64,000 bases of DNA from Rubrivirga marina (GTDB lineage: Bacteria > Bacteroidota > Rhodothermia > Rhodothermales > Rubricoccaceae), in contig NZ_MQWD01000001.1 of NCBI RefSeq assembly GCF_002283365.1, positions 4,579,815 through 4,643,814 of the forward strand, in the 5' to 3' direction. Position numbers and translations under genes: made by a program. Each line of letters begins with the position of its first letter. Within the stretch, counting starts at the first letter, position 1. Of this stretch, positions 35,705 through 50,485 are shown piece after piece. Under the pieces are notes generated by a model. That model had not been told where the DNA came from. It saw nothing but the letters and a program-made list of their open reading frames with translations, and searched no databases.

Positions 35705-36421
35705 TTGCAAGTCACCTCCCCCGACGACGCCCTCCTCAGCCGCCGCGACCGCGAGCGCCTCGCGCGTCGCCTCGCCATGCTCGACGCGGCGCTCGCCGTG
35801 TTTGGCGAGAAGGGGTTCGAGGGCGCCACGCTCGACGAGATCGCCGAGCGCGCCGAGTTCGGCAAGGGGACGCTCTACAACTACTTCCCCGGCGGAAAGG
35901 ACGAGCTGTACCGGTCGCTCTTCGAGGAGCGCGTCGTCCGTGGCCTCTACGAGGTCGTCGAGCGGACGCTCCCTGAGGCCCGGTCGCTAGCGACGCGCGC
36001 CGAGGCCCGGGAGGCGTTCCGCGACTTCGTCGTCGGCCTCTTGGAGCACTTCGACGCGCACCGCTCGGCCCTCCGCCTGTTCATGGCCGAGGGCCCGCGG
36101 GCCTTCCACGACCCCGAGCGGATGCGGCACGTCATCGAGCTGTTCGCGGGGTTCACCGAGGCCGTGACGCGGGCCGTCGAGCGGGCCATCGAGGCGGGCG
36201 CGCTCCGTCCGCTCCCCGCCCTCCCCGTCGCGCACCTCCTCATCGGCAACGTCCGCGGCGTGCTCATGGCCCACGCGGCCACCGACTGCGCGCCCGACCA
36301 CGTCTCCTCGCTCCCGGAGCTCGTCCCGGCCGAGACCGCCGACCTCATCACGACCGTCCTTTTCGACGGGCTCCTCGCGCCGGCGTCATCGGACGCGGGC
36401 GCCCCGTCCCCCGACGCATGA
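35705..36421 (+). CDS. TetR/AcrR-family transcriptional regulator of the efflux operon
   Basis: A 238-residue DNA-binding protein starting at TTG 35705; the next Met (MLDAALAVF, about residue 25) would remove the first helix and is less likely. The helix-turn-helix spans ATLDEIAERAEFGKGTLYNYFPGGKDELY, the TetR signature, at about 41-70. The ligand-binding part from about 80 is helical and variable. The TGA stop overlaps the ATG of the TolC gene (ATGA), so the four downstream products are translationally linked to their regulator. The probable operator is just upstream. The ligand is unknown; a toxic compound exported by the pump is expected. Confidence 0.9.
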   Translation: MQVTSPDDALLSRRDRERLARRLAMLDAALAVFGEKGFEGATLDEIAERAEFGKGTLYNYFPGGKDELYRSLFEERVVRGLYEVVERTLPEARSLATRAEAREAFRDFVVGLLEHFDAHRSALRLFMAEGPRAFHDPERMRHVIELFAGFTEAVTRAVERAIEAGALRPLPALPVAHLLIGNVRGVLMAHAATDCAPDHVSSLPELVPAETADLITTVLFDGLLAPASSDAGAPSPDA

Positions 36422-38166
36422 CGACCCGCACCCTCGCCCTCTCCGCCCTCGCGCTCGGCGCGATCGGCACGGCGCCCCCCGCCGGCGCCCAGCCCGACAC
36501 GGGCCGCGACTCGGCCGTCGTGATCGGCCTGTACGACCCGGCGACGGGCGGCCCGGCCCGGCCCGCCTCGGGCACGATCCGGCTGACCCTCGACGACGCG
36601 ATCCAGATCGCGCTCGAGCGCGCCTACGCCGTCCGCCTCGCCCAGCTCGACGTCGAGAACTCGCAGTCGCAGGTCCGCGAGGCCTACGGCCAGCTCCTCC
36701 CGCGCGTCGACGCCTCGTCGAGCTACACGCGGAACGTGGTCCAGGCCAACCCCTTCGCCGGCTCGTCCGCCGGCAGCCTGTTCAGCGGGCTCGGCGCCAT
36801 CGGCTGGCTCCAGTTCAACGAGCAGGCGCGGACCGACGACGACCCGACCACGCAGCCGATCTCGCTCGCCGAGTACCAGCGGCGCGTCGGCGAGGGCCAG
36901 GCGGCGGTCGGTTACAACCCGGCCGACTCGTCGAACCCGTTCGGGACGGACAACCAGTTCACAAATACCCTCTCGCTCAGCCAGCCGATCTACTCGGGCA
37001 CGGCGTTCGCCGCCGTCAAGGGCGCGCGGGCGCTCGTCGAGATCAACGAGTCGGCCGTGGCGCAGCGGGAGGACGAGACGATCGACCAGACGCGGCAGGC
37101 GTTCTACGGCGCGCTCCTGGCGCAGGAGCAGGCGGCGGTCCAACGCGCGTCCCTCGACCGCTCGCGCGAGACGTTCGACGACGCTTCCCTCCTCGTGGCG
37201 CAGGGCGTCCGGCCCGTGCTCGAGCGGCTCAACGCCGAGGTCGACCTGGCCAACGCCGAGACCGGCGTGGTGACGGCCGAGGCCCAGGCCGAGTCGGCCC
37301 GCGACCAGCTGCTCCTCACGCTCGGGCTGCCGGTCGACGCGCCGGTCGAATTGGTGGGTGAGTTGGCGCCGCCGGAGGAGGCCCTGTTCCAGACGGTCGG
37401 CCTCGCGGCCGCCTCCGCGCGGGCCCTCGACCTCCGGCCGGACATCCAGCAGGCCGCGCTCGCCGTGCGTCTCAACGAGGTCCAGCGCGACATCACGAAG
37501 GCCGGCCTCTACCCCAGCCTCAGCGCGTTCGTCAACGCGAGCTACAGCGGCAACATTCCCGACGACCGGAGCTTCCTGACGAATCCGGACCCGTCGGACC
37601 CGTTCACGTTCGAGGCCGGCTCGACCGACTTTTTCTCGGAGGCCTACTGGCAGCCGGCGCTCTCGGTCGGCCTCCGGATGAACTGGCTCCTGTTCGACGG
37701 CTTCCAGACGCGGCGCCGCATCCAGCAAAACCAGATCGCGGTGGATCAGGCCGAGATCCAGCTCGAGCAGGCCCGGAACGCCGCGGCGCTCGAGGTGGCC
37801 CAGGCCGTCCGCCAGCTCCAGAGCGCGGAGCGCCGCCTCGGCACCCAGGCGCAGACGGTCGCGACGGCCGAGACGGCCTTCGCCTTCGCGAGCGCCCGCC
37901 TCCAGGAGGGCGTCGCCACGCAGCTCGACGTCCGCACGTCGAGCCAGAACCTCGACGTGGCGCGGCTCAACTACCTCCAGGCCGTCTACGACGCCCTCGT
38001 CGCGCGGAGCGCCTACGAGCGGGCCACGGGCACGATCGAGCCCGAGCCGCTCGACCTCGCGCCGCGCCCGGAGCCCTCGCCCCGGATTCCGGCCTCGCTC
38101 CAGACCGACGCCGTCCCCGAGGCGGCGCCCCTCACACCCACCGGCGGCACCGACTCGCCCCGATGA
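36418..38166 (+). CDS. TolC-family outer-membrane efflux protein
   Basis: A 582-residue exported protein (signal MTTRTLALSALALGAIGTAPPAGAQ) forming the outer-membrane duct of the pump. Two OEP repeats are visible: LTLDDAIQIALERAYAVRLAQLDVENSQSQVREAYGQLLPRVDAS near the start, with long helices to about 320, and a second beginning LDLRPDIQQAALAVRLNEVQRDITKAGLYPSLSAFV, with VDQAEIQLEQARNAAALEVAQAVRQLQ and LDVRTSSQNLDVARLNYLQA. An insert of about 70 residues after SSYTRN (rich in Gly, Asp and Gln) is longer than usual. The 3' end overlaps the next frame by ATGA. Confidence 0.93.
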   Translation: MTTRTLALSALALGAIGTAPPAGAQPDTGRDSAVVIGLYDPATGGPARPASGTIRLTLDDAIQIALERAYAVRLAQLDVENSQSQVREAYGQLLPRVDASSSYTRNVVQANPFAGSSAGSLFSGLGAIGWLQFNEQARTDDDPTTQPISLAEYQRRVGEGQAAVGYNPADSSNPFGTDNQFTNTLSLSQPIYSGTAFAAVKGARALVEINESAVAQREDETIDQTRQAFYGALLAQEQAAVQRASLDRSRETFDDASLLVAQGVRPVLERLNAEVDLANAETGVVTAEAQAESARDQLLLTLGLPVDAPVELVGELAPPEEALFQTVGLAAASARALDLRPDIQQAALAVRLNEVQRDITKAGLYPSLSAFVNASYSGNIPDDRSFLTNPDPSDPFTFEAGSTDFFSEAYWQPALSVGLRMNWLLFDGFQTRRRIQQNQIAVDQAEIQLEQARNAAALEVAQAVRQLQSAERRLGTQAQTVATAETAFAFASARLQEGVATQLDVRTSSQNLDVARLNYLQAVYDALVARSAYERATGTIEPEPLDLAPRPEPSPRIPASLQTDAVPEAAPLTPTGGTDSPR

Positions 38167-38240
38167 CGACGCCCGACACGGCCCGCCTCGGCGGCGCCCC
38201 CGCCCGCTTCACCCCCCCGGACCGCCCGTCCCCCGCAGCC

Positions 38241-39587
38241 ATGCGCCCCCTCCGTCGCTTCACCACCGCCCTGCTGGCGGCGCTCGCCCTCGCGGCGTGC
38301 CAGCCCGGCCCCGAGACCGCCGACGAGGTCGAGGCCCCGGCCGACCGGGCCGTCCCCGTCGAGGTCGTCGTCGCCGACCCCGGTTACTTCGAGGACACCA
38401 TCGAGCTTACCGGCACCGTCGACGCCAACAACGACGCGTCGCTCTCGCCCGACGTGCCCGGCATGCTGACGTACGTGGCGCCCGTGGGCACGTTCGTGCG
38501 GGCCGGGCAGACGGTCGCGCAGGTCCGCGCGACCACGCAGCAGGCCGGCGTCGCGAGCGCCCGCGCGCAGGCCGCGCAGGGTCGGGCTGGCGTGAGCCAG
38601 GCGCAGGCCCAGGTGGCCGGCGCCGAGGCCGGCGTTCAGGCCGCCCGCGCCCAGCGCGAGGCCGCCCAGGCCCAGCTCGACCTCGCCCAGGACCAGTACC
38701 GCCGCCAGTACCCGCTCTACCGCGACTCGATCTTGAGCGCGCTCGAGTTCCGCAACGTCGAGAGCCAGCTCGCGCAGGCCCGCGCCCAGGTGGCCCAGGC
38801 CGACGCCGGGATCGCGCAGGCGCAGGGCCAGCTCCGCGCCGCCCGCGAGGGCGTCAACGCGGCCCGCGCGCAGTCCCAGGCCGGCGACGCTGGCGTCGCG
38901 AGCGCCCAGAGCCAGCTCGCCAGCACGCGCGTCGTCGCCCCGTTCTCGGGCGTCGTCGAGGCGCGGCTCCAGGAGGCCGGCGAGCTCGCGTCGCCCGGGC
39001 AGCCGGTCGTCCGACTGGTGGGCTCCGGCAGCGTGAAGGTCACGGCTGGCGTGCCGGAGCGGTACGCGGGTGAGATCGAGCAGGGCACGCAGGTCCAGGT
39101 CATGCCCAACGCCTACGAGGCCGAGGCGAGGGGCGGGCGCGTCTCGTTCGTCGGCCTCGCCATCGACGAGGCCTCGCGGACGTTCCCGATCGAGGTCGCC
39201 GTCGAGAACGCCGACCGGTCCCTCAAGCCGTCGATGGTCGTCCGGATGGACGTCACGCGCCAGATCCTCGAGAACGCGATCGTGGTCCCGACCGAGGCCG
39301 TCGTGCGCGACGAGCGCGGAACGAGCGTGTTCGTCGTGGCCCAGGACACGGCCGGGGCCGTCGCGTCCCGCCGCGTCGTCGAGCTCGGCCCGAGCGCCGG
39401 CGACACCGTCGTCCTCCGCTCCGGCGTCGAGGCCGGCGACCAGGTCATCGTCTCGGGCGCCGGCGACCTCGCCGAGGGCGACCGCGTCCGCGTGACCGAG
39501 ACGCGCGAAGTGGCCGTCGCCACCCGCACGCCCGCCCGTGCCGCCAGCCGCGTCCGCCCCACGGGCGACGCCGTCCGAGAAGACTAA
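38241..39587 (+). CDS. RND-pump periplasmic adaptor lipoprotein
   Basis: The preferred start, 38241, gives the lipoprotein signal MRPLRRFTTALLAALALAAC (Cys at 20). An upstream ATG at 38163 overlaps the TolC stop (ATGA) and may allow translational coupling through a 26-residue leader. The protein then has the hlyD/acrA order: a beta domain (VTGTVDANNDASLSPDVPGMLTYVAPVG), a long alpha hairpin with Gln/Ala repeats (about 120-230), the second lipoyl half (RVVAPFSGVVEARLQEAGELASPGQPV) and a beta-barrel/membrane-proximal end (MVVRMDVTRQILENAIVVPTEAVV). It links the permease to the TolC-type duct. Confidence 0.92.
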   Translation: MRPLRRFTTALLAALALAACQPGPETADEVEAPADRAVPVEVVVADPGYFEDTIELTGTVDANNDASLSPDVPGMLTYVAPVGTFVRAGQTVAQVRATTQQAGVASARAQAAQGRAGVSQAQAQVAGAEAGVQAARAQREAAQAQLDLAQDQYRRQYPLYRDSILSALEFRNVESQLAQARAQVAQADAGIAQAQGQLRAAREGVNAARAQSQAGDAGVASAQSQLASTRVVAPFSGVVEARLQEAGELASPGQPVVRLVGSGSVKVTAGVPERYAGEIEQGTQVQVMPNAYEAEARGGRVSFVGLAIDEASRTFPIEVAVENADRSLKPSMVVRMDVTRQILENAIVVPTEAVVRDERGTSVFVVAQDTAGAVASRRVVELGPSAGDTVVLRSGVEAGDQVIVSGAGDLAEGDRVRVTETREVAVATRTPARAASRVRPTGDAVRED

Positions 39588-39647
39588 CGAGGCCCGATGC
39601 GTGGCGGCCCTCCCGCCGCGCGTCCCCCGTCCCCACCCCCTCGTCCG

Positions 39648-42600
39648 ATGAATATTACCGACCTCGCGATCTCGAACCGGACGGCCGTCGTCGTCCTCAT
39701 GCTCGCGCTGACGATCGGCGGGCTCGTGGCGTACGTCGCGCTCCCGAAGGAGAGCCAGCCGCAGATCGAGTTCGCCACCATCGTCGTCACGACGATCTAC
39801 CCGGGCGCGAGCCCGGACGACGTCGAGTCGATCATCACGCAGGAGATCGAGCGCGAGGTGGCCACGATCACCGGGCTCGACGTGCTCCGGAGCACGTCGA
39901 CGGAGGGCGTCTCGACGGTCATCGCCGAGTTCCTGCCCGACAAGGACATCGACGAGGCCAGCCGCGAGGTCCGCGAGGCGGTCGACGTGGCCAAGGTCGA
40001 GTTCCCGACGGACGTCGAGGAGCCGATCGTCTCCGACATCGACTTCGCCGACTTCCCGATCGTCACGGTCAACCTCCTCACGGAGGGCTCGCTGACCCAG
40101 CTCCGCTCGACGGCCGAGGACCTCCAGGACGAGATCGAGGGCGTCCCCGGCGTGTCCGGCGTCGACCTCCTCGGCGGCCTCGAGCGCGAGGTCCAGGTCG
40201 ACGTCGACCTCGCGGCGCTCCAGGGCGCCGGCCTCTCGGTCGACGACGTCGTGGCGGCCGTCCAGACGGAGAACGCCAACATCCCCGGCGGCTCCGTCGA
40301 CGTCGGCCCGGAGAACTACCTCGTCCGCGTCAACGGTGAGTTCGACAGCCCGGACGAGATCCTCGACCTCGTCGTGGCCTCGCCGGGCGGGACGCCGGTC
40401 TACGTCCGCGACCTCGCCGACGTGACGTTCGGGTACAAGGAGCGGGCCAGCTACGCCCGCCTCGAGGTCGTCCAGCGGGAGAACGAGGACGGCGAGTTCG
40501 TCCCGGTCTCCGACGCCGAGAACCTCCAGGTCATCCGGCTCAACGTCAAGAAGTCCTCGGGCGAGAACATCATCGAAGTCGTTGACGGCGTCGAGGAGGC
40601 CATCGCGGGCTTCGCGTTCCCGTCGGGCACCGAGTACGTCCTCACGGGCGACCAGTCGGAGAGCGTCGAGATCCTCGTCAAGGACCTCGAGAACAACATC
40701 ATCGCGGGCATCATCTTCGTGATCGCGGTGCTCCTGTTCTTCCTCGGCGTCCGGAACGCGTCGCTGGTGGGCCTCGCGATCCCGCTGTCGATGTTCGTGA
40801 GCTTCCTGGTCTTCTCGGTGATGGGCCAGACGCTCAACTTCATCATCCTCTTCTCGCTGATCATCGCGCTGGGGATGCTGGTCGACAACGCGGTCGTCAT
40901 CATCGAGAACATCTACCGGTTCCGGGAGGAGGGCTACGGCCGGTGGGAGGCCGCGCGGAAGGGGACGGCCGAGGTCGCCCTGGCCGTGGCCGCCTCGACG
41001 GCGACGACCGTCGCGGCGTTCGCCCCGATGCTCCTGTGGCCGGGCATCATCGGCAAGTTCATGAGCTACATGCCGATGACGCTCATCGTGACGCTGACGT
41101 CGTCGCTGTTCGTGGCGCTCGTGATCAACCCGGTCGTGGCCGGCTTCTTCGTCAAGACCGACGCCGAGCTCCGCGAGGAGGAGGCCGCGCGGAAGACCCG
41201 CCAGCCGAGCCGCCGCGGCCGGATGATCGGGCTCGGGCTCGTCGCCTTCACGGCGCTCGTCGTCGGCATCGCCAACTGGAAGACGTTGATCTTCCTGGCC
41301 GTCGCGGTCCCGGCCCTCGTCCTGCTCTACCGGAACGCGCTCGAGCCGGCCCACCGCCGGTTCGCCGGGCGGACCGTCCCGCGCATGACGGACGCCTATC
41401 GCCGCTTCCTCAAGTGGATGCTCCAGCGGGACTACTCGGTCCGCCGTGGGCTCCTCCGCAATACGTTCGCGCTGGGCAGCTTCACGGGCGGGTTCCTGCT
41501 CCTCGTCGCGGGCGCCGCGCTCAACGCCGCCGCGGCACCGGCCGGCTTCCTCCTGATCATTCCCGGTGGCCTCGCGCTCCTCGTCGGCATCCTCGCCATC
41601 GTGTTCCACAGCCTGGAGACGGCCTACCTCGGCGGGCGCGCGAGCGTCAAGGCGGGACTCATCTTCGGCGCCATCGTCGCCGTGCTGGCCGTCCTCCTGA
41701 CGCTGGCCGGGCGGATCGACCTGTCGAGCGTGGAGGGCGTCGAGGTCCTCATCGGGATGTTCCTCCTGCCGGCCCTCGTCGCCGGGTTCGGCGGCCTCGG
41801 CGTGCTGTTCGGACCGGGCGGGCGTCGCGAGCGGGCGCGAAAGCAGACGGTGTTCGGCTCGCCCTATGTGGTCCTCACGGACAACCGCGCGCGGTTGCTG
41901 ACGGCCACGCTCGGCGTGCTCGTCGGCGTGATCGCCCTGTTCTTCGTGGCCCCGACCGGCGTCGAATTCTTCCCAACCACGGACCCCAACCAGGTCCAGA
42001 TCACGGCCGAGGCGCCCATCGGGACCAACATCGAGCGCTCGAACGAGGTCGCCGAGGACGTCTTCGCCCGCGTCCAGAACCTCATCGAGACCGACGAGGG
42101 CACGGCCGGCAACACGCGCGACGTGGCGACGTCGGTCGGCGTCGGCGGCGACGCGATGTTCGGCGGCGGCTCGGCGAGCGCCGAGAGGTCGTCGGTCACG
42201 CTCAACATGGTCGACTACGAGCAGCGGTCCGAGTCGTCCTCGGAGACGCTCCGGCGCATCCGCGCGGCGCTGACGGGCCTGCCGGGCGTCGACCTCCAGG
42301 TGGAGCAGGACGAGAACGGCCCGCCGACCGGCGCCGCGGTCAACATCGAGGTCTCGGGCCCCGAGTTCGAGGGGATCCAGGACCTCGCCAACGACCTCAA
42401 ATCCCAGCTCGAGGCCGGCGTCGAGGCGGGCCGGATCGAGGGGCTCGTCGACATCCGCGACAACCTCAACTCGGGCCGGCCGGAGTACCGCGTCGAGATC
42501 GACCGCGAGCGCGCGGCGGCCTTCGGGCTCTCCACGCAGCAGGTGGCGCTGGCGGTCCGCGGCGCCGTCAACGGCGTCGAGGCCAGCCAGTGGCGCGACG

Positions 42601-43592
42601 GCAAGGACGAGTACGACATCACGGTCCGCCTCCGCGAGGCCGATCGCCAGAGCCTCCGCCAGATCGAGTCGCTGACGGTCCTCAACGAGGGCCAGCAGAT
42701 CCCGCTCGTGGCCGTGGCCCGGATCGAGCCGGCCTCCGGGCTCGGGAGCGTCACGCGGCTCGACCAGGAGCGCGTCGTGACGGTCCTCGGCGACGCGGCG
42801 CCGGGCGCCAACGCGAACGCCGTGCTCGCCCAGGTCCAGGCCGAGCTGGCGCCGACGCTTGACGACATCCCGCCGGGCTACACCGTCGCCTACACGGGCG
42901 CGAACGAGGAGCAGAACGAGAGCTTCGGCTTCCTCACGACGGCGCTCCTGATGGGCCTCGCGCTCATCACGATCATCCTCATCGCCCAGTTCAACTCGAT
43001 CAAGAACCCGCTCATCATCATGGTCGCGGTCGGGCTCTCGCTCATCGGCGTGATGCTCGGCCTGATCCTGACGCGGACGCCGTTCGGGCTCATGACGTTC
43101 GTCGGGCTGATCTCCCTGGCCGGCATCGTCGTGAACAACGCGATCGTGCTCGTCGACTACATCGAGCAGCTCCGCGACCGCGGCGAGGACAAGCAGGAGG
43201 CCATCATCGACGGCGGCGCGACGCGCCTCCGGCCGGTCCTCCTGACGGCGTTTACGACGGTCATCGGGCTCATCCCGCTCACGTTCGGGATCAACATCGA
43301 CTTCGTCGGGCTGATGGTCGACCTCGACCCGTCGTTCTCGATCGGCTCCGAGAACACGCAGTTCTGGGGCCCGATGGGCACGGCGATCATCTCGGGCCTG
43401 ACGTTCGCGACGTTCCTCACGCTCGTCATCGTGCCAGTGATGTACTCGGCGTTCGACAGCATCGCGCTCCGCTTCGCCGCGGCCCGCCAGCCCGACGACG
43501 CGCCCGAGCCGGACCTGCACTCGAGCACGCCGCTGGCGGGCGACGGGTCCTCGAGCGGCGAGCTCGTCCCGGCCCCGGTCCCGGCCACGTAG
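39648..43592 (+). CDS. RND efflux permease with a large membrane insertion
   Basis: The start at 39648 (MNITDLAISNRTAVVVLM) gives 1314 residues, about 270 longer than normal RND pumps of the HAE1 type. Two porter halves are recognisable: PGASPDDVESIITQEIEREV, then the TM4 proton-relay IALGMLVDNAVVIIENI, and the second half from FFPTTDPNQVQITAEAPIGT with the matching GIVVNNAIVLVDYIEQL. Between TM6 (ends about residue 499) and the segment before the second porter half (about 755) lies an insert with roughly six additional hydrophobic segments. Overall family assignment is secure; the substrate is unknown. Confidence 0.93.
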   Translation: MNITDLAISNRTAVVVLMLALTIGGLVAYVALPKESQPQIEFATIVVTTIYPGASPDDVESIITQEIEREVATITGLDVLRSTSTEGVSTVIAEFLPDKDIDEASREVREAVDVAKVEFPTDVEEPIVSDIDFADFPIVTVNLLTEGSLTQLRSTAEDLQDEIEGVPGVSGVDLLGGLEREVQVDVDLAALQGAGLSVDDVVAAVQTENANIPGGSVDVGPENYLVRVNGEFDSPDEILDLVVASPGGTPVYVRDLADVTFGYKERASYARLEVVQRENEDGEFVPVSDAENLQVIRLNVKKSSGENIIEVVDGVEEAIAGFAFPSGTEYVLTGDQSESVEILVKDLENNIIAGIIFVIAVLLFFLGVRNASLVGLAIPLSMFVSFLVFSVMGQTLNFIILFSLIIALGMLVDNAVVIIENIYRFREEGYGRWEAARKGTAEVALAVAASTATTVAAFAPMLLWPGIIGKFMSYMPMTLIVTLTSSLFVALVINPVVAGFFVKTDAELREEEAARKTRQPSRRGRMIGLGLVAFTALVVGIANWKTLIFLAVAVPALVLLYRNALEPAHRRFAGRTVPRMTDAYRRFLKWMLQRDYSVRRGLLRNTFALGSFTGGFLLLVAGAALNAAAAPAGFLLIIPGGLALLVGILAIVFHSLETAYLGGRASVKAGLIFGAIVAVLAVLLTLAGRIDLSSVEGVEVLIGMFLLPALVAGFGGLGVLFGPGGRRERARKQTVFGSPYVVLTDNRARLLTATLGVLVGVIALFFVAPTGVEFFPTTDPNQVQITAEAPIGTNIERSNEVAEDVFARVQNLIETDEGTAGNTRDVATSVGVGGDAMFGGGSASAERSSVTLNMVDYEQRSESSSETLRRIRAALTGLPGVDLQVEQDENGPPTGAAVNIEVSGPEFEGIQDLANDLKSQLEAGVEAGRIEGLVDIRDNLNSGRPEYRVEIDRERAAAFGLSTQQVALAVRGAVNGVEASQWRDGKDEYDITVRLREADRQSLRQIESLTVLNEGQQIPLVAVARIEPASGLGSVTRLDQERVVTVLGDAAPGANANAVLAQVQAELAPTLDDIPPGYTVAYTGANEEQNESFGFLTTALLMGLALITIILIAQFNSIKNPLIIMVAVGLSLIGVMLGLILTRTPFGLMTFVGLISLAGIVVNNAIVLVDYIEQLRDRGEDKQEAIIDGGATRLRPVLLTAFTTVIGLIPLTFGINIDFVGLMVDLDPSFSIGSENTQFWGPMGTAIISGLTFATFLTLVIVPVMYSAFDSIALRFAAARQPDDAPEPDLHSSTPLAGDGSSSGELVPAPVPAT

Positions 43593-43594
43593 CC

Positions 43595-43709
43595 CCGCCC
43601 GCCTCGGGGAGCCGACCGGCGCACCAGACCGCAGCGCAACCGTGGGGGCGACTCGCCGAGTCGCCCCCACGGCGTCTCGGAGCCTCCGCTGCCGCGTCGA
43701 GGCGGGCGG
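43595..43709. repeat. Nested palindromes after the efflux operon
   Basis: Outer arms CCGCCCGCCTCG (43595-43606) and CGAGGCGGGCGG (43698-43709) belong to the window-wide palindrome family and enclose the hairpin at 43640-43672. Confidence 0.65.
43640..43672 (+). terminator. Strong hairpin closing the efflux operon
   Basis: Perfect 16-bp arms (43640-43655 CCGTGGGGGCGACTCG and its complement 43657-43672) around a single central C. It lies 47 bp after the permease stop. No T-run follows, so termination would depend on stem strength or Rho. Confidence 0.7.
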
Positions 43710-43742
43710 TGTCGTACTCTGTCGACCCCGCCGTTCCGCGCC

Positions 43743-43994
43743 ATGGCCGACTCGACCCCCGTGACCATCCCCACGTCGCTGTGGGAGTCCGACGGCACCG
43801 AGGAGGCCGTCCTCGCCGAATGGCTGGCCGCCGACGGCGCCCGCGTCGAGGCCGGCGCCCCGCTCGCCGAGGTCATGGTCGACAAGGTGTCGCTGGTGCT
43901 GGAGGCGCCGGCGAGCGGCGTGCTCGAGATCCAGCGCGAGGAGGGCGCCCCGGTCGGTCTCGGGGCGACGGTCGCCGTCATCCACGCCCCGTAG
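43743..43994 (+). CDS. Free-standing lipoyl domain of an E2-like complex
   Basis: An 83-residue protein equal to a single lipoyl domain of 2-oxoacid dehydrogenase E2 chains. Lys48 sits at the tip of the hairpin in LAEVMVDKVSLVLEAPASGVL, the classic D-K-[VA] context. The start at 43743 (MADSTPVTIPTSLWESDG) fits the domain beginning. The stop is 2 bp before the next ATG, which encodes a minimal E2 catalytic domain, so the usual E2 is split into two proteins here. No E1 or E3 gene is adjacent. The peripheral subunit-binding domain normally between them is missing. Confidence 0.85.
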   Translation: MADSTPVTIPTSLWESDGTEEAVLAEWLAADGARVEAGAPLAEVMVDKVSLVLEAPASGVLEIQREEGAPVGLGATVAVIHAP

Positions 43995-48517: not shown

Positions 48518-50485
48518 CTACCGCACGACCGTCACCGGCACGTGCCCCACGACGCCATCGGCCACGGCCCGCACGACGTACGCCCCGCCCCTCAGCCCGC
48601 CGACGTTGGCCGCCAGCCGGCGCGGGCCCGACGCTAGCGGGCCGTCGTGGACGACCGCGACCCGCCGGCCGAGCACGTCGACGACCTCGACGCGGACCCA
48701 CGCGGGCACGGCGAGATCGACCGTCACCGTCAGCGCGCGGGCGGCCGGGTTCGGGAAGGCGGCGAGGGCGAGCGTCGGCGCGGGGGCGTCCGCCTCGGCG
48801 GCCGTGTCGCCGAGGCCGGCGGCGACAGCCAGCGCAAACACCACCCGCCCCGTCGCGATCGTCTCGTCATTCGTCCCGTCGAGGCCGGCCCGGTGGATCG
48901 TCTCGTCGGCGAGCGACCAGTAGAGGGCCCCGCGGACGCCGTCGACCGCGAGGCCGTAGATCTCGGGAAGGCCGGAGGCGAGCACCTCACCGTCGCCGCT
49001 CCCGATGGCGGCGCTCGACACGGTACCGGGCGTGGAACCATTCGTCGGGTCGTTCGAGGCCCAGTAGATCCGTTGCCCGATCGGGTCGAGCGCGAGCGCC
49101 TCCACGTCCTCGGCCCCGGCCACGACGACCTCCCGACCAGCCCCGTCGAGGCCGGCCCGCTCGATGGCGTCGGTGCCGGCCCAGTACAGCCTCCGCGACT
49201 CGGCGTCGACGGCGACCGCGGTCGCGCTGACCGCGCCGGCCAGCACCTGCCCCGGGTCCGCACCGTCGTAGCCGACGCGCCAGATCCGACGCGAGCCGTC
49301 GACCCAGTACACGTCCTGCGCGACCGGATCGACCGCCAGCCCGCCGCGTGCGATCGCCTCGACGAGCACGCGGACGTCGCCGCCGTCGAACGCCGCGCTG
49401 GAGACCGATGACTCGTTGAAGTCGGACCAGAACACGCGCCCGGCGCCGGGGTCGACGGCGAGGCCGTTCGGAAAGCTCACCCCGCCGAAGAGCGTCGCGG
49501 GGTCCGACCCGTCGAGCGCCGACCGCCGGACGGTGCTCGCGCCCAGCGCCAGCAGCACGTCGGCCTCGGGAGAAAGGGCGAAGCCGGACGGCTGGAACCC
49601 GCTCGCGAGCGCCTGGCGGCCGGACCCGTCGAGCGCGGACCGCTCGACGGCGTCGCGCGTGCTCCAGTACAGACGCCCGCCCGCCGGCTCGAGCGTGAGG
49701 CCGTTGACGAACGACGCCACGGAGACGAGGTCCTCGGCATTCGCCCCGTCGAGGTCGCCCCGTCGGAGGATCCGACCGGCGCCCGCGGTCTCCTGCCAGT
49801 AGAGCTGCCCGGCCGCGCCGTCGACCACGACGCAGCCCGAGGACGTGAGGTCGACCGTCTCGAAACCGGTCCCGTCGTAGCCCACCCGCCGCGGCTCGCG
49901 GGTCGCGAAGTCGAGCCAGTAGAGCTGGCGGTTGACGGGGTCGAGGGTCGGACAGGTCGGGCTCTCGCCCGAGGCGGGCGTGTGGAGCGTCCGGACGTCG
50001 GACCCGTCGAGGCCGGAAAGGACGTAGGCGCCGGAGGCCACGTCGCGCCAGACGAGGACGCCGTTGTCGAGGTCGATCCGGAACGGCGAGGCGCCGGTCG
50101 CGATCGTCTCCGCGTTCGACCCGTCGAGGTCCGAGCGGCGGATCCGGTCGTCGCGGTCGAGCCAGTAGATCGTGCCGGCTCCGGGGTCGAGGAGGAGCAT
50201 CCGGACGTCCGTCGGCCCGAGGGGCTCGAGGCCGGAGCCGTCGAGGCGGGCACGACGGAGCACGCCGTCGCCGTCGCGCCCGTAGATCCGGCCGCCCAGA
50301 GGGTCGATGGCGACCGACGTGAACGGCACGGGGCCGACGACGACCGAGGCCTGGGTGCCGTCGGCGTCGGCGCGATAGACCCCGGCGGGGGCGTCACCGA
50401 ACGGGGACTCAGCCCAGAACAGCGGCTGCCCGCTGGCGGGCACGGCGAGGAGGATTGCGAGGGCGGCGAGTCGAGGGAGCGTCAT
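48518..50485 (-). CDS. Secreted YWTD beta-propeller protein with C-terminal sorting domain
   Basis: A 655-residue protein (signal MTLPRLAALAILLAVPASG) made of about 13 LDL-receptor YWTD-type repeats, e.g. IYWLDRDDRIRRSDLDGSNAETI, LYWLDFATREPRRVGYDGTGFETV, LYWSTRDAVERSALDGSGRQAL, VYWVDGSRRIWRVGYDGADPGQVL, enough for two six-bladed propellers. The last 80 residues, FPNPAARALTVTVDLAVPAWVRVEVVDVLGRRVAVV, then GAYVVRAVADGVVGHVPVTVVR, look like a type IX secretion type A sorting domain. It should reach the outer surface. Binding to a protein or glycan partner is the usual role of such propellers; the partner is unknown. Confidence 0.88.
   Translation of the reverse strand: MTLPRLAALAILLAVPASGQPLFWAESPFGDAPAGVYRADADGTQASVVVGPVPFTSVAIDPLGGRIYGRDGDGVLRRARLDGSGLEPLGPTDVRMLLLDPGAGTIYWLDRDDRIRRSDLDGSNAETIATGASPFRIDLDNGVLVWRDVASGAYVLSGLDGSDVRTLHTPASGESPTCPTLDPVNRQLYWLDFATREPRRVGYDGTGFETVDLTSSGCVVVDGAAGQLYWQETAGAGRILRRGDLDGANAEDLVSVASFVNGLTLEPAGGRLYWSTRDAVERSALDGSGRQALASGFQPSGFALSPEADVLLALGASTVRRSALDGSDPATLFGGVSFPNGLAVDPGAGRVFWSDFNESSVSSAAFDGGDVRVLVEAIARGGLAVDPVAQDVYWVDGSRRIWRVGYDGADPGQVLAGAVSATAVAVDAESRRLYWAGTDAIERAGLDGAGREVVVAGAEDVEALALDPIGQRIYWASNDPTNGSTPGTVSSAAIGSGDGEVLASGLPEIYGLAVDGVRGALYWSLADETIHRAGLDGTNDETIATGRVVFALAVAAGLGDTAAEADAPAPTLALAAFPNPAARALTVTVDLAVPAWVRVEVVDVLGRRVAVVHDGPLASGPRRLAANVGGLRGGAYVVRAVADGVVGHVPVTVVR

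Follow-up and report, generated by a model that had tools for sequence, protein, structure and literature searches.

The window, a stretch of 64,000 nucleotides from Rubrivirga marina (contig NZ_MQWD01000001.1), contains an operon whose adaptor and TolC-type genes mark it as a tripartite efflux system. Its third gene, after those for the outer membrane factor and the adaptor, codes for a permease of the resistance-nodulation-division (RND) superfamily. This open reading frame (ORF), at 39648-43592 on the forward strand, starts with an ATG at 39648 and encodes 1314 residues; a second in-frame ATG at 39597, upstream of this start, is likewise open. We confirmed that the protein has six extra predicted helices between its transmembrane segments (TM) 6 and 7. 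The analysis established a conserved RND core, even numbers of added segments in the family, conservation of the insert throughout the class, its place in the operon and substitutions among the proton-relay residues.

In the permease, 271 residues extend from position 503 to the EFFP motif at 773, whereas the genome's six further complete permeases have 54 to 67 in this stretch. The original prediction was right to place an insert here but set its size too high, at about 250 extra residues, as the net excess is 204 to 217. Over the full length of the protein a segment finder, which is permissive, identified 18 hydrophobic segments; 12 are canonical, and six are additional (residues 526-542, 546-561, 607-625, 632-653, 669-687 and 700-721). 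When the whole protein was shuffled 2000 times, pieces of 271 residues contained 3.4 segments on average, and at least seven (TM7 included) in 27 cases. Shuffling the 271-residue stretch itself 2000 times gave a mean of 5.2, with at least seven in 215 cases. Thus, the stretch is very hydrophobic, and the segment count alone is weak proof. The case for six extra helices rests on conservation and on AlphaFold2 rather than on the count.

Two AlphaFold2 runs, not independent of each other, were performed with aligned sequences that are mostly common to both. The model of residues 330-1290 (961 residues, 82 aligned rows) had a mean predicted local distance difference test (pLDDT) score of 85.9 and a predicted template modeling (pTM) score of 0.83; for residues 516-745 (63 rows) the values were 91.1 and 0.67. 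Both runs returned the six helices A to F listed in Table 1, the only difference being that the second ends at residue 591 in the larger model. The six extra segments proposed from the sequence are thus predicted membrane helices in both runs, and their number is even. The larger model superimposed on AdeB over 658 residues (3.5 Å, Z score 44.2), leaving approximately 300 of the 961 residues unaligned. The insert alone had no significant counterpart among Protein Data Bank (PDB) folds (best Foldseek E value 3.0; VIA-align Z scores of at most 6.0 among 65 chains), which does not by itself prove a new fold.

Table 1. Coordinates in the window of the permease, its extra helices and relay residues, and the genes upstream
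Feature	Position	Strand	Basis
RND permease, 1314 residues, predicted 18 TM helices	39648..43592	+	ORF, Pfam, AlphaFold2, segment finder
TM6, residues 480-502	41085..41153	+	segment finder
Extra helix A, residues 522-542	41211..41273	+	AlphaFold2
Extra helix B continuing into I-alpha, residues 544-592	41277..41423	+	AlphaFold2
Extra helix C, residues 601-628; R604, N605 conserved	41448..41531	+	AlphaFold2, alignment
Extra helix D, residues 634-662; G647, H654, E657 invariant (72/72)	41547..41633	+	AlphaFold2, alignment
Extra helix E, residues 664-686	41637..41705	+	AlphaFold2
Extra helix F, residues 695-721; G715, G718 invariant (72/72)	41730..41810	+	AlphaFold2, alignment
TM7, residues 746-767, starting in the TDNRA motif; D745, R747 invariant (72/72)	41883..41948	+	AlphaFold2, alignment
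TM4 relay pair D413-N414 (AcrB D407-D408)	40884..40889	+	alignment
TM10 N1163 (AcrB K940)	43134..43136	+	alignment
TM11 R1193 (AcrB R971)	43224..43226	+	motif
T1200 (AcrB T978)	43245-43247	+	motif
Periplasmic adaptor (RND_mfp)	38163..39587	+	TIGR01730, 211.1 bits vs cut-off 94.9
TolC-type outer membrane factor	36418..38166	+	TIGR01844, E 8.1e-35, under its cut-off
TetR-type regulator	35705..36421	+	several TetR-type models, all under cut-off

The insert consists of two modules placed around the cytoplasmic I-alpha helix (YRRFLKWMLQRDY), with helices A-B before it and C-F after it; C-F is followed by a conserved TDNRA motif and then by TM7. An assembly artifact or a frameshift was considered and rejected, as the layout recurs in independent assemblies, including the complete chromosome CP030158 (L040). 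We surveyed 173 loci with a matching ORF of at least 900 residues. Nine that were incomplete or split by BLAST were dropped (L177/L118 among them), and a 95% identity rule reduced the remaining 164 to 134 rows. Removal of the paralogs or outsiders L001-L006 and L188, kept for comparison only, left 127 rows, including the window. The survey excluded L007 and L008, which are pieces of the window gene, and any locus whose ORF fell short of 900 residues, as in L115 with 897.

Classes were set by the length of the stretch equivalent to that between residue 503 and EFFP. No extra segment is present in 10 rows (61-81 residues), and the A-B hairpin alone occurs in 41 (class 2; 111-139 residues). Four rows, Ignavibacteria-type relatives, have a different hairpin, C-Dx (132-135 residues), which is distinguished from A-B by its position after I-alpha. 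The class of the window, with A-B plus C-F (class 6; 242-271 residues), comprises 64 rows, and eight rows have two segments more (class 8; 307-315 residues). The segment finder counted six extra segments in 63 of the 64 class-6 sequences and seven in the other. In all, 125 of the 127 nonredundant sequences have 0, 2, 6 or 8 extra segments, the two exceptions, L084 and L153, being counted as having one too many; no row among the 127 has four. By eye, L177/L118 also have the 8-segment layout. The additional hairpin of L178 is unlike that of the other class-8 rows (the L179 group; one sequence against six), and yet its AVMNPEA motif is shared, by eye, with L177/L118; hairpins with this motif occur in two families. 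At least two kinds of additional hairpin thus exist in 8-segment permeases.

Conservation in the insert is concentrated at particular positions. Among the 72 class-6 and class-8 sequences, N605, H654, E657, D745 and R747 are invariant, and R594 and R604 are retained in 71 and 70. The first three of these, together with R594 and R604, lie near predicted cytoplasmic helix ends, and D745 and R747 lie just before TM7. In the six hydrophobic segments, conservation of 85% or more is confined to Gly, Pro and hydrophobic positions; N543, at the turn between A and B, is 94% conserved. As judged from the alignment, this pattern would fit packing and anchoring of the helices rather than a separate conduction path. 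Elsewhere in the permease, 30 residues (1216-1245; 43293-43382) separate the TM11 and TM12 segments, with a family consensus motif SENTQFWGP; this stretch is presumably longer than that of AcrB.

Profile searches placed the protein in the RND superfamily. The Pfam model PF00873 (ACR_tran) matched at 632.9 bits (cut-off 28), in two stretches. In a search of the whole genome, profile positions 2-499 and 525-1020 were matched in this permease approximately 233 residues apart; six other permeases matched the model unbroken, and one further ORF did so over positions 327-492 only. The 12 canonical segments form the two six-TM repeats typical of RND permeases, in which TM1 and TM7 are each followed by a large periplasmic loop, and six segments are added to them. 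The permease remained below the cut-offs of the HAE-1 model TIGR00915 (331.5 against 940.35), of the HME model TIGR00914 for CusA/CzcA (358.3 against 701.45), and of RND_permease_2, NF033617, its best-scoring NCBIfam model (552.5 against 1250). The insert does split the match of the window protein, but an A-B-only relative without C-F was also below the TIGR00915 cut-off, at 402.4. Neither the window protein nor any of four relatives examined, among them one fragment, reached the cut-off of an NCBIfam RND model, in agreement with the earlier statement that no standard RND subfamily was known with this layout. A survey of the open PMC literature by title and beginning of the abstract, a scope that leaves aside subscription papers and preprints, found no description of helices inserted between TM6 and TM7 in an RND permease.

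The original prediction also proposed that the extra helices may be a separate regulatory or lipid-interacting subunit that became fused into the permease. C-F does behave as one conserved unit of approximately 140 profile positions, and it was predicted with high confidence when modeled with A-B alone. However, strong matches to its profile, present in 39 of 40 relatives (own genome included), all fell in the permease gene or its fragments, and the eight weak matches in other ORFs had E values of at least 0.189. At an E value of 0.001, the profile matched 60 of 395 Bacteroidota genomes, the phylum to which systematic sampling was confined: 44 belong to the order of the window genome, a further 15 to its class (Rhodothermia), and one lies elsewhere. 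All 59 matches within the class lie in the permease. The C-F region of the window had no match in Pfam (best E value among 62 members 0.013), in a PDB sequence search or, at significance, among PDB folds. As the insert is moreover made of two modules, and relatives with A-B only exist, fusion of a subunit is improbable. The single match outside the class is marginal (G079, C4:79788-79961, E 8.8e-4, in a 202-residue ORF), either a chance match or a free-standing relative.

C-F is usually present in one copy per genome, although fragments in G013 suggest two. Among the genomes listed, only G018 of the same order is devoid of it, and the best permease match in that genome has 32% identity and is no close relative. 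A-B without C-F was also found in other Bacteroidota, in Gemmatimonadota and on one Bipolaricaulota contig (L115, a cut ORF outside the 127 rows). Separately, C-F loci filed under Myxococcales or Deltaproteobacteria names (L059, L069 and L107) may reflect gene transfer or misnamed bins. In a tree of 53 rows from which the insert columns had been removed, a branch with support 99 separated the 24 class-6 and class-8 rows from all others, and one with support 100 set off the four C-Dx rows; class 8 required two changes. This tree was built by a quick method and has long outgroup branches, and it does not settle gain or loss of A-B. An earlier FastTree tree recovered the same class-6/8 group, with a label of 0.573 at the fork, where rerooting may have moved the labels.

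The kinship of the hairpins was probed with hhalign, by comparing A-B of two classes, C-D, E-F, C-Dx, the G-H hairpin of class 8, and six core helix pairs. The A-B hairpins of classes 6 and 2 are homologous (97-98%). Values among C-D, E-F, C-Dx and G-H were 0-2%, and the highest between unlike hairpins was 15%, for A-B of class 2 and C-Dx. Among the positive controls, TM3-4 and TM9-10 were paired at 41-45%, whereas the value for TM5-6 and TM11-12 was 50% in one direction and only 15% in the reverse, so that weak relations between hairpins could be missed. With this limit, the hairpins beyond A-B showed no detectable relation by hhalign to each other or to the core that would point to an origin by duplication. 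Weak C-F profile matches within the same gene (G017, E 0.017; G006, E 0.07; G014, E 0.97) were not accepted as traces of duplication, as they start at a motif shared with I-alpha.

We matched the proton-relay residues to AcrB numbers by motif and by what we take to be the AcrB sequence. The equivalents of D407, R971 and T978 are retained as D413, R1193 and T1200. In contrast, the D408 position is Asn in all 72 class-6 and class-8 rows, and at the K940 position 66 of them have Asn and the other six Val. Where HAE-1 pumps have D407, D408, K940 and R971, the window permease thus has D413, N414, N1163 and R1193. The earlier view that the relay looked intact therefore stands for D407, R971 and T978 but not for D408 and K940, both Asn in the window. 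In the 127 rows, the TM4 and TM10 positions read DN with an uncharged residue 110 times, DN with Lys once, DD with Lys or Arg 16 times and DD with an uncharged residue never. These rows are related, so that the paired changes are not independent events. An excerpt of PMC4359379 reports that D407N, D408N, K940A and R971A each inactivate AcrB. Because the D408 and K940 positions are neutral here, whereas D408N and K940A each inactivate AcrB according to that excerpt, the pump is likely energized by a smaller relay, or differently. The paired neutral positions offer a natural test of the two-proton model.

We propose, with a probability of roughly 0.4, that this protein serves a tripartite RND system as its inner-membrane pump, that its membrane domain has grown from 12 to 18 helices by hairpins flanking I-alpha, and that the resulting side bundle moves with the second repeat (R2) and tunes the pump. 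I-alpha is the connector between the two pump repeats, and hairpins would have been added on both its sides. Because the I-alpha of AcrB moves rigidly with R2, and C-F sits between I-alpha and TM7, C-F would travel with R2. It may form a bundle next to TM7, bordering the lipid-facing groove of TM7-TM9, the entry of hydrophobic substrates to channel 1. An excerpt of PMC8277102 describes TM7 as peripheral and puts the start of channel 1 at the TM7/8 groove. The bundle may thereby tune the motion of the first repeat (R1) against R2, or the access of lipophilic substrates, as AcrZ modulates AcrB. An excerpt of PMC7267776 places AcrZ on the concave membrane surface of AcrB and states that it raises resistance to a subset of substrates. 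Proton coupling would involve one Asp (D413) together with R1193 and T1200, replacing the network of two Asp, Lys and Arg.

Several observations weigh against this proposal. The reduced relay is no hallmark of C-F, as 33 of the 41 A-B-only and all four C-Dx relatives have it as well. One extra segment, an odd number, was counted in the more distantly related permease L188, which is not among the 127 rows. Mean pairwise identity within class 6 is 0.38 for A-B, 0.45 for C-D and 0.34 for E-F, well below the 0.75 of TM2-6, although that of C-D is close to the 0.48 of TM7. Judging by these identities, the insert may resemble a loosely constrained, lipid-facing part. The larger model represents a monomer, in which TM1 and the greater part of the first periplasmic half are missing. 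The mean number of Lys plus Arg per loop supports the topology clearly for some loops only, as with B-C (8.2) versus C-D (0.09); the support is unclear for D-E (0.92), E-F (0.89) and A-B (0.75).

The low identity of A-B and E-F, and the lack of detectable relation among C-D, E-F, C-Dx and G-H (hhalign 0-2%; maximum 15% between unlike hairpins), would also be expected if the TM6-TM7 connector merely tolerated functionless hydrophobic hairpins that were later locked in. Against such neutral accretion, N605, G647, H654, E657, G715 and G718 of the insert, with D745 and R747 beside TM7, are invariant in the 72 class-6 and class-8 sequences, and the sole listed genome of the order without C-F is also the one without a close relative of the permease. 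By analogy with AcrZ we favor a modulating role for the bundle, and regard neutral accretion, though rather unlikely, as its serious rival. Our proposal of a tuning bundle can be extended to the family. The TM6-TM7 joint may be a hot spot at which hairpins were added repeatedly and independently, yielding pumps of 14, 18 and 20 helices with a reduced, possibly one-proton relay and a built-in AcrZ-like modulator; this wider scenario is possible but tentative.

Pumps of the AcrB/AdeB type (HAE-1) share with the window permease the ACR_tran domain, two six-helix repeats, an I-alpha helix between TM6 and TM7 and a tripartite operon, and the model matches AdeB and AcrB with VIA-align Z scores of approximately 44. 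They differ in having 12 helices per protomer, as given for AcrB in the excerpt of PMC8277102, against a predicted 18, and in a relay of D, D, K and R against D, N, N and R. AcrZ resembles the insert in that it adds a helix to an RND pump by packing against the membrane part (excerpt of PMC7267776), a contact that the insert would make as well; AcrZ is a small protein in its own right with a single helix, whereas the window permease has six within its own chain. The A-B-only permeases (L110 of Gemmatimonadota, L117 of Cytophagales, L157 and others) have a related core, a homologous A-B hairpin and mostly the reduced relay, but lack C-F, with 111-139 residues between TM6 and TM7 instead of 242-271. 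The conserved 18-helix form shows that the connector between the moving repeats can bear a large membrane bundle, and the family provides natural variants for studying repeat coupling and the entry of lipophilic substrates.

The gene neighborhood was compared in the class-6 and class-8 loci longer than 14 kb. Relatives of the adaptor and TolC genes lie upstream of the permease in all 31, and a TetR-like gene in 19 of the 27 class-6 loci but in none of the four of class 8. The gene for the murein peptide ligase of peptidoglycan recycling, mpl, has the orientation of the permease and follows it downstream in 24 of the 31 loci, including L040, on whose copy alone the identification was made (TIGR01081, 398 bits against a cut-off of 388.7); the ORF list of the window showed no mpl gene directly after the permease. 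A relative of a ManC-like gene flanks the permease in 22 of 31 loci, the window copy scoring 324 bits with GMP_PMI, below its cut-off of 372.95. The wide presence of the permease and its mpl and ManC-like neighbors faintly suggest a role in envelope housekeeping and not in acquired drug resistance. Such neighbors would also suit a two-part transporter in which the extra helices form an ion or lipid path of their own, for which six helices would suffice if the path is small. Nevertheless, no polar residue within the six hydrophobic segments reaches 85% conservation, and the insert matched no transporter fold, although a missing match does not exclude one. We regard a separate path as very improbable.

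Two further features of the window were recorded. Antisense to the operon, the reverse strand has an open frame of 1990 residues (38013-43985), probably a by-product of the high G+C content. On the same strand, positions 48518-50485 encode a 655-residue protein with many repeats of the type LYW.., which we take to resemble YWTD propeller repeats.

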